From positions 451,797 to 515,796 of the forward strand of contig NZ_CAAGSW010000001.1 in NCBI RefSeq assembly GCF_900774055.1: a stretch of DNA of 64,000 nt, given 5' to 3'. The notes under the pieces were generated by a model. It was not told the origin of the DNA. It ran no database searches and worked only from the letters and a program-made list of their open reading frames with translations. Source of the DNA: Methanococcoides sp. AM1. GTDB taxonomy: Archaea > Halobacteriota > Methanosarcinia > Methanosarcinales > Methanosarcinaceae. Positions 60,851 to 63,931 of the stretch are shown piece by piece (position 1 is the stretch's first letter; every line of letters begins with the position of its first letter). The position numbers and the translations under genes are program-made.

Positions 60851-60885
60851 GGGATATCAGGCTTTAAGCCTTGTAACCATATCCC
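60851..60885. terminator. Hairpin between convergent genes
   Basis: GGGATAT (60851-60857) pairs with ATATCCC (60879-60885), enclosing GGCTT-T-AAGCC (60860-60870). It spans the end of the EF-Tu-like gene and the gap after the KaiC partner gene. Confidence 0.45.
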
Positions 60886-61901
60886 GCGAATCTCTGTTTA
60901 TCATCCAGATTGCAAATGGTAAACCTGTCTGATTCATTGTAAGCCAGTAACTTTGATCCTAATAGTGTTACAATGCATTCGCCGTCGGTTGTTGTTCTCT
61001 CAACTTCCTCGTCATCCTTTTCTATCTTTTCGACTCTCATCGGGGATGACTGAAGTCCGACAAAGATATGTGGGACATCTCCGATCGTAAAGCCTTTTGA
61101 GAATGGTGAGAACTTACATTTGAGTGTCAGGTCTTCAGTAACATCTTCCTTTTCCGAGAGTATGAAACCTCTCTCTATATCCTTTGACTGTACGTTCTTG
61201 AGTGCAAGTCCGACCCGGGCACCTGCAGGAGCGCTCTTTGTATCTACATCATGCATCTGTATCGAGCGTACTTCTATCGTTTTGTCTGTTGGGAATGCCA
61301 CCAGTTTGTCCTTTGCTTTCAGGGTGCCCTGCATCACAATTCCAAGCACCACACAACCGATACCTGTTACATTGAAGGACTGGTCGATAACAACACGTGT
61401 TGGCAGGTCATTGAGTTCCTCCTGCTCCTTTGCAACTACATCCCCCATATCAAATATCATCTCTTTTAATTCTTCCATTCCTTCGAATGAAGTTGTGGAA
61501 ATTGAGATGTATTCCCAGTTCTCAAGAGAGGTTCCTGCTGTGACCTTTTTAAGTTTTTCCTTCAGCTCATCTAAAGCAAAGGGGTAACTTGTATCTGCTT
61601 TTGTAAGGACGATGATGCCATGCTTGTATCCTAGGAGATCAAGTGCAATGATACATTCGCCTGTATGTGCATCAAGACCTTCAGGAGGTACGCACAAAAG
61701 GACAATGTCCGAAAGATTAAAGGCGGTCACCATAGGTTTGATGGAAGTTGGATAACCGACCGCATCTATGGTCGTCAGGACCTTGTCGTTCTTGGAAAAA
61801 TCGTACATCGTAATGTCCGCTGTGGTTCCTTTTTTCCCAAGTTTTGAAGCAAGGGTGGTTTTGCCGCTTTTTTCGCTTCCGATAATAGTTATTTTTGTCA
61901 T
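60864..61901 (-). CDS. EF-Tu/SelB-like translational GTPase, divergent
   Basis: 345 residues. P-loop GSEKSGKTTL, a D-x-x-G equivalent in TIDAVGYPT, and the base-recognition loop VLTKADT (T for N in NKxD) make a shortened and divergent G domain. Domain 2 (QSFNVTGIGCVVLGIVMQGT) and a domain-3-like barrel follow as in EF-Tu and SelB. No switch I region of normal length is visible. This fits the SelB-like paralogues of Methanosarcinaceae that lack selenocysteine function; a role in a specialised translation step is possible but unproven. Confidence 0.8.
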   Translation of the reverse strand: MTKITIIGSEKSGKTTLASKLGKKGTTADITMYDFSKNDKVLTTIDAVGYPTSIKPMVTAFNLSDIVLLCVPPEGLDAHTGECIIALDLLGYKHGIIVLTKADTSYPFALDELKEKLKKVTAGTSLENWEYISISTTSFEGMEELKEMIFDMGDVVAKEQEELNDLPTRVVIDQSFNVTGIGCVVLGIVMQGTLKAKDKLVAFPTDKTIEVRSIQMHDVDTKSAPAGARVGLALKNVQSKDIERGFILSEKEDVTEDLTLKCKFSPFSKGFTIGDVPHIFVGLQSSPMRVEKIEKDDEEVERTTTDGECIVTLLGSKLLAYNESDRFTICNLDDKQRFAGYGYKA

Positions 61902-61958
61902 ATATGATCACACTTTTAGTGTACAGAAATACCTTTTGTCATATATGCTTTTTTGACA

Positions 61959-63131
61959 TCACCAGAGTTCCCCTTTGAACATGGACAGGGTTTTATCATT
62001 AGTACTCTTGCTAAGCTTTTTCATCTTCACAAGGAATTCATCACCAATCTTTTCCGGTTCCTCGAACATTGTTTCTATTCCCTGTCGCCGGAGGTATTCC
62101 TTGAATTCTGAAAGAGTATCAAGACTTCTAACACGTATCTGCACTTCGTCAGACACTCTTTCACCTTTTTCTATCTCAGTAATGGAGTCTATCATTGGAT
62201 TAAGTATGCTCTCACCAAGCTGAAGGCAGCGCTTTTTGAGATCTTCTTCGTTTTCTCCCCATTCAAAGGCCTGGAAGCCTTCCCGCACCACCCTTGAAAA
62301 AAGATAGTCACGACCCACATCATTATAAAATCTGAACGCATGTCGCAGATCTGCACAATTGCTCTGTGAACAGGTGTATTTTATGGGCGGGATATTCATA
62401 GCGGGGTCTTTGATAACAACGCCTTCATGTTCGATCTTCCCGAGTTCTTTGATAATGGTATGTATCTTCTCAGGAGCCTCTTTTTTTGTAAATTCCCCAA
62501 AAAGCCTGACCTGTGTGAAACCATATTCTTCTGCCATCTTCCTTCTTTCATTTACAGGGAGAGGCTCACCACTGCCCTTATGCCTTATATCGAAGACATA
62601 GAAGTCAAGGGAATCGATATCGTATATGTTCTTGGGCACATAAGGGTTATCGGGTCCGACCATTTCCCCGTGAAGGACCAGGTCCGGGTGGTCATTAAAA
62701 AAATTAATATTCAGCAGGTACCTTGCTTTTTCTGTGGAATAGGGGCAGATATATCCGCCGCGTGTGATGGCGGTTATTTTCCCGTCAAGAGATATGGCCC
62801 GTACATTAAAGCCATTCATTTTCTCTTCCACGCAAACAGTAGCAATATCGGAAAAATGAGAATTGATAGCAGGTTCAAGCAGCATGGCCCGCTTTATCTT
62901 CGGAAAACCCTTGATCAGCTCAAAACAGCCATCCCTTTGCTAGACAACAGTTCCACTTTCGATCTGTGAAAAAGTGGTTTCAAAACGAAAAAGATGCTGG
63001 TATTCTCCCCAGTTCTGCAAAAGCTCACGCTTATCGAGCAGTCTCTGAAGCCTGGAAATGGGTATGCCAAGATACTCTGCCACACCCTCTACGTCCAGTT
63101 CAATATCTTTACCAGCATCACTGGATTGCAT
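61959..63131 (-). CDS. ATP-dependent RNA ligase (Rnl3 family) with an in-frame amber codon
   Basis: The frame is open over 390 codons except for one TAG at 62940-62942. Upstream it gives an N-terminal domain (VEGVAEYLGIPISRLQRLLD, HLFRFETTFSQIESGTVV). Downstream it continues directly with QRDGCFELIKGFPKIKRA and the nucleotidyltransferase core with motif I EEKMNGFNVR (Lys near 104), HGEMVGPDNPY and EHEGVVIKDP. Full length matches archaeal Rnl3 ligases (about 380-390 residues). Rnl3 ligases join or circularise RNA. The TAG is probably decoded as pyrrolysine; the alternative is a nonsense mutation. The start is the ATG at 63131 or the GTG at 63140, which overlaps the upstream CBS gene. Confidence 0.85.
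62940..62942 (-). other. In-frame amber codon, putative pyrrolysine (codon 64)
   Basis: The complement reads ACT GTT GTC TAG CAA AGG GAT in the RNA ligase frame. Conserved family sequence lies on both sides, and no other stop or frameshift is present, so this single codon divides an otherwise complete gene. Confidence 0.75.
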
Positions 63132-63136
63132 AGTTT

Positions 63137-63913
63137 TCACTTTGCAATAGAGTTCACAAGCGTCCTTCTTGTGATGAGCCCGACCATATATCCTTCGAGG
63201 TTTATAACAGGCACACCACCAATGTTCTCCTCAAGCATCATCTCTTTTACTTCTGATACCGGAGTGTTGGTCTGTACGGTCTTTACTCCCCTCTTCATGA
63301 TATCCTCTACAATGAGGTTCTTGATACGGGAATCCTGCTTGTTTCCTGAAACCACATCCCTGAAAGCACGCATTGACTTTGCAATATCCTTCTCTGTAAC
63401 GATTCCCACAAGCTTATCGTCCTCAATAACAGGGAACCTTCCAACATCCTCATCAAGCATCTGATGCCTAACATGGCTTACCCTGTCTCCGGGATGAATA
63501 GTTATCGGGTTACTGTTCATAACCTCGGCAGCATACCCGTCGAATGTTACATTTTGAAGCAGTTCAGCAGGCGTGACCCACCCAAGAACGTTCTCACTGT
63601 CGCTTACTATGATAACGCCACTGTTTTTAGCCATCAATACGACCGCATCATTGAGGTCCATATCAGGCAGGACCTTCACATAGTTGTCTGATACAGCAGT
63701 AGCAACATGAAGTGAAGAAGCTGGTTTTGCACCTTTCTTTCGTGTCCCCAGTTCTTCGGTAAGCCTTCGCATGGTGAGAACACCGACAAGATCATTATCA
63801 TGTGTCACTAACAGGCGACGTGTACTTTTCTTCTCCATCACATCAAGTGCATGTGAGATCGTGTCTGATTTGTCAATTGATGTTGGTTGTACCATTATGT
63901 CTTTTACTTGCAT
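63137..63913 (-). CDS. Four-CBS-domain protein
   Basis: 258 residues made of four CBS motifs (two Bateman modules): [60 protein letters not shown] and [20 protein letters not shown]. No other domain. It should sense adenine nucleotides or SAM-like ligands. The ATG at 63913 has GAGGTGA at ideal spacing; a GTG nine bases earlier lies inside that site. Its stop overlaps a possible GTG start of the RNA ligase (GTGA), so the ligase may depend on its translation. Confidence 0.9.
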
Positions 63914-63931
63914 GTCTGTCACCTCTTTAAC

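Follow-up and report, generated by a model that had tools for sequence, protein, structure and literature searches.

A conserved in-frame UAG codon, probably read as pyrrolysine, in the RNA ligase gene of Methanococcoides

The gene for an ATP-dependent RNA ligase in Methanococcoides sp. AM1 carries a single in-frame UAG at codon 64, and it is highly probable that one full-length ligase is made because this codon is decoded by pyrrolysyl-tRNA(Pyl) from the cell's own pylTSBCD genes, the codon having arisen neutrally from a tyrosine codon. The gene lies in a 64,000-nucleotide stretch of the genome (the window), and its parts and neighbors are listed in Table 1. Translation of the minus strand over the ligase gene showed the TAG to be the sole interruption of a 390-residue frame. 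This agrees with the preliminary description, which had reported an Rnl3-type ligase reading continuously except for the TAG, with typical ligase peptides on both sides of it and an intact EEKMNGFNVR motif.

Table 1 Features of the window around the RNA ligase gene
Feature	Position	Strand	Remarks
CBS-domain protein gene, directly upstream of the ligase	63137..63922	minus	gene order conserved in relatives
ATP-dependent RNA ligase gene, Pab1020/Rnl3 family (TIGR01209)	61959..63131	minus	390 codons plus TGA stop, one TAG read through
N-terminal 63 codons 5' of the TAG	62943..63131	minus	purifying selection, omega 0.39, p 5e-4
TAG within the frame at codon 64, probably read as pyrrolysine	62940..62942	minus	TAG at the same codon in 9 of 11 Methanococcoides
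18 codons from the TAG to the sole possible restart ATG, with the GFPKI.RA stretch inside	62886..62939	minus	omega 0.11, p 7e-7
Remaining ligase from the ATG at codon 83, with EEKMNG (K104) and the Lig_C domain	61959..62885	minus	omega 0.13, p 8e-113
aSelBL (SelB-like elongation factor, once proposed as 'EF-Pyl'), downstream of the ligase	60864..61901	minus	profile matches; PMC3037878, PMC4329189

The read-through protein matched TIGR01209 (RNA ligase, Pab1020 family) over residues 21-390 with 402.7 bits (1.2e-120), above the curated cut-off of 136.9 bits, and the part downstream of the ATG at codon 83 scored lower by itself (357.2 bits). Both Pfam RNA_ligase and Lig_C matched, the latter at 2.3e-42, and the nucleotidyltransferase lysine motif EEKMNG is present with an invariant K104. 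The nearest solved structure was the Methanothermobacter RNA ligase 5d1o, to which the AlphaFold model of the ligase aligned with a TM of 0.90-0.94; the fold also matched 2vug. By profile, motif, C-terminal domain and modeled fold, the protein is assigned to the Rnl3/Pab1020 family, with a predicted activity in RNA ligation or circularization. It shares its full-length family, fold and catalytic motif with the archaeal ligases MthRnl (5d1o), PAB1020 (2vug) and TK1545, but has a UAG where MthRnl carries Tyr and PAB1020 carries Ile. In this confidently predicted model (pLDDT 89), residue 64 falls in strand 62-66, which together with strand 69-73 opens the adenylyltransferase core, and residue 64 is 40 residues in sequence from the catalytic Lys104.

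For the nine TAG-bearing species only, omega was estimated with a codon model, using a tree built on fourfold-degenerate sites, and omega = 1 was rejected for the codons 5' of the TAG, for the next 18 codons and for those further 3' (Table 1). If the UAG terminated translation, the products would be a peptide of 63 residues plus a truncated ligase starting at Met83, or the gene would be a pseudogene; an ATG indeed stands at codon 83, and the 308 codons that remain include the catalytic Lys. However, no ATG, GTG or TTG occurs in frame between the TAG and codon 83. The 18 codons before Met83 would be untranslated if the ribosome stopped and restarted there, yet they are under strong constraint and hold the invariant residues G75, F76, P77, K78, I79, R81 and A82, and therefore the full-length protein appears to be the selected product. 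Termination would also remove the core strands 62-66 and 69-73 of the AlphaFold model, and the low omega downstream excludes decay. This reading is largely refuted and retains hardly any probability. A pseudogene or split gene was rejected on the purifying selection between the TAG and the next ATG, and the pattern of selection indicates that a full-length ligase is made, neither a pseudogene product nor two polypeptides.

The genome contains pylT, pylS, pylB, pylC and pylD, in this order and followed by mtbA. A pylS gene with an adjoining tRNA-Pyl (CUA anticodon) was found in all 11 Methanococcoides genomes, including the two without a TAG in the ligase. Stop usage was measured for coding-scored ORFs on 864 kb of genome stretches (about 35%), where TAG terminated only five of 634 ORFs (0.8%), TGA 337 and TAA 292; a cruder count without the coding score gave 1.5-2% for TAG and was superseded by the scored one. 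The five TAG-ended ORFs were MtbB, MttB, an FrhB/FdhB-like gene, a hypothetical gene and pylB, and four of the five continue past the TAG. TAG is here close to a dedicated sense codon. The pyl genes, the undecayed ligase frame and the near vacancy of TAG as a terminator bear out the earlier suggestion of a likely non-methyltransferase pyrrolysine protein. The UAG at codon 64 would be decoded by the tRNA-Pyl of the cell's own cluster to give a single full-length ligase, for which we infer both the inserted residue and the efficiency of decoding. Kivenson et al. (Science, 2025) reportedly described archaea in which all TAG codons mean pyrrolysine, along with many new pyrrolysine proteins, and the present genome resembles that code in having TAG nearly vacant as a stop and used as sense in diverse genes.

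The terminal TAG of pylB (L064:8783-10045, minus) is conserved in 11 of 11 Methanococcoides and overlaps the pylC start, and read-through would add 42 residues. UAG may thus still act as a stop somewhere; if UAG usually means pyrrolysine, this gene of pyrrolysine synthesis may itself encode pyrrolysine and an extension.

A C after a stop codon is a leaky context in other organisms, and a C follows the ligase UAG, which would suit decoding of the UAG by an ordinary tRNA for Gln, Tyr or Lys, acting as a near-cognate, instead of tRNA-Pyl. This C, however, belongs to a conserved Gln codon, and the dedicated tRNA with a CUA anticodon in 11 of 11 genomes is expected to out-compete near-cognates, which leaves such reading very unlikely.

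The ligase was searched for in 60 genomes of the order, 11 of which are Methanococcoides, and the copies were aligned at codon 64. The codon is TAG in nine of the 11, with TGC (Cys) in G007 and CAG (Gln) in G002, and every TAG-bearer has kept its downstream frame intact, with no sign of decay. A sequencing error or chance as the source of the TAG was rejected, given nine separate genomes with the TAG at the same codon and the frame intact. No full-length ligase copy outside Methanococcoides in the 60 genomes had an in-frame stop, and codon 64 in the copies read there was mostly Tyr (TAT/TAC), otherwise Cys, Val, Leu or Ile. In a relative of another genus the ligase copy (G015:C1:18288-19441) is disrupted by several stop codons, with each of the three types represented, and the copy in G028, of the same genus as G015, is intact.

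The gene tree placed TAG-bearing species in both halves of Methanococcoides, and synonymous divergence between the two TAG-bearing clades is near saturation (dS about 1.9-2.5 downstream of the TAG). The codon model reconstructed TAG as the ancestral state of one clade, with a posterior near 1. The simplest history would be a single gain, from a tyrosine codon, followed by two losses. In a lineage that hardly ever ends genes with TAG, TAT or TAC would have changed to TAG by one base change, presumably neutral and most likely once, before the known Methanococcoides species diverged. Codon 64, a tolerant site in the opening strand of the adenylyltransferase domain, would have accepted pyrrolysine, which at least two lineages later exchanged for Cys or Gln. 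Pyrrolysine in the ligase is probably a structural filler and not catalytic, because the site is tolerant and was later replaced by Cys and Gln.

Selection at the site was assessed in a codon model with TAG treated as a 62nd sense codon. The omega of codon 64 was 0.54, exceeding about 91% of columns, and the test for selection for pyrrolysine in this model was not significant against omega = 1 (LR 1.05, p 0.31). The TAG in nine of 11 species represents slightly more persistence than a free site might give (by the same point estimate), and weak selection for pyrrolysine may be acting. The site is not kept as UAG wherever pyl genes occur, as seen from the Cys and Gln of two pylS-bearing congeners. 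A PYLIS-like mRNA structure was not found 3' of the UAG, where fold energies were like those of shuffled sequences in three species (z 0.47, -0.98 and 0.61); such structures are present in some genes only and are not required for UAG decoding (PMC9499178). A special role of pyrrolysine in the ligase is not supported by these comparisons. The TAG has been kept across the genus despite the large synonymous divergence, as would be expected if pyrrolysine were selected for a chemical role, e.g., contact with RNA. However, Cys and Gln replace it within the genus and Tyr, Leu, Val, Ile or Cys stands outside, the codon is in the least constrained 9% of columns, and its distance in sequence from Lys104 also argues against such a role, which we regard as very improbable.

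The preliminary description had offered the alternative that the UAG tunes the ligase level, with a methylamine-linked supply of pyrrolysine tying RNA ligation to the growth substrate. The UAG would then be a regulatory gate, at which pyrrolysyl-tRNA and the release factor compete to set the amount of ligase, and its location near the 5' end, its conservation in most of the genus, the mtbA gene adjoining the pyl cluster and the CAA or CAG that follows the TAG in every TAG-bearer could be taken in this sense. The near-neutral evolution of codon 64, the two congeners with pylS and tRNA-Pyl but no TAG, and the ordinary mRNA fold speak against tuning. The following codon also encodes Gln in most TAG-free relatives and is hence explained by the protein; a leaky-stop context UAG-CAA was rejected on this ground. 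We consider a regulatory gate unlikely, and the link to the substrate meets the same counter-evidence, together with the sense codons one step from TAG in three genes described below. There is similarly little likelihood that the ligase, and hence circular or processed RNAs, came to depend on pyrrolysine in such a way that weak selection kept the dependence genus-long and methylamine metabolism controls RNA ligation.

Other genes of the same genome carry an in-frame TAG. An FrhB/FdhB-family gene with a YHS domain (L112:11945-13117, plus strand) has a TAG at codon 345 of 390, and the Pfam domain extends past it. Within Methanococcoides, each of the six species in one clade has the TAG, and the two species read from the other clade have TAT (Tyr); the stop was absent from all four copies found in that other clade. 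This gene is likely a second conserved non-methyltransferase pyrrolysine protein. A hypothetical, probably disordered protein (L081:15753-17051, plus strand) has, in this species alone, a TAG as codon 162, followed by 270 codons, and three relatives have AAG (Lys) there; the comparison points to a recent in-frame TAG. All three non-methyltransferase TAGs examined align with sense codons one step from TAG, i.e., TAY for the ligase in sister genera, TAT and AAG. The FrhB-like and hypothetical genes would, by analogy, represent single-step changes at tolerant positions, a neutral route as proposed for Thg1.

The order of CBS-domain protein, RNA ligase and aSelBL genes (60864-63922, minus) is conserved in nearly all relatives read, with the TAG present or absent, and the CBS-domain gene and the ligase are probably on one transcript. 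The pairing of the ligase, then termed 'ATP-dependent DNA ligase', with the elongation factor-like gene has been recorded earlier, and aSelBL is distributed more widely than pyrrolysine use (PMC3037878). The Methanosarcina mazei homologue of aSelBL binds Cys-tRNA (PMC4329189). A special tie between the ligase TAG and the former 'EF-Pyl' was rejected, and no link is claimed, because the same order occurs in TAG-free genera, aSelBL extends beyond pyrrolysine users and the M. mazei homologue binds Cys-tRNA.

The closest parallel among known systems is Thg1 (tRNAHis guanylyltransferase) of Methanosarcina acetivorans, for which, as relayed in PMC2933860, an in-frame UAG was described with pyrrolysine seen in the protein but not needed for activity, and a neutral origin was proposed (Heinemann et al. 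2009). The ligase is likewise an RNA-processing, non-methyltransferase enzyme with an in-frame UAG in a pyl-bearing methanogen. By this account the amber codon of Thg1 occurs in one species and its pyrrolysine was observed, whereas the ligase UAG is common to nine of 11 species and is known here from genes. The methylamine methyltransferases MtmB, MtbB and MttB of the same genomes also have a single in-frame UAG, and the present screen picked up two of them, MtbB and MttB. Their pyrrolysine is catalytic and nearly all methylamine enzymes retain it, unlike the ligase site, at which Tyr, Cys, Gln, Leu, Val and Ile are tolerated. The ligase would be an addition to the known pyrrolysine proteins, and the survey of Kivenson et al. 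may already include it. Besides methyltransferases, the accepted pyrrolysine proteins are transposases and Thg1 only (review PMC8211752), and the main text of the in-frame amber surveys of 2005, 2007 and 2013 (PMC1242214, PMC1914089 and PMC3639795) does not name the ligase.

The genus-wide UAG of the ligase, together with the FrhB/FdhB-like case, provides a clean test case in nature for the way in which ordinary genes acquire a sense-reassigned stop, and illustrates a route by which tyrosine or lysine codons would drift to TAG at tolerant sites. If the UAG is read as pyrrolysine, ligase synthesis would depend on pyrrolysine supply as a by-product, the exploitation of which by the cell is unsupported. 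The homologue in Thermococcus kodakarensis can be knocked out and is needed for C/D box sRNA circularization (PMC9014305). Loss of pylT in Methanococcoides would accordingly remove the RNA ligase and, because that homologue is needed for circularization, is predicted to cause loss of circular C/D box sRNAs.
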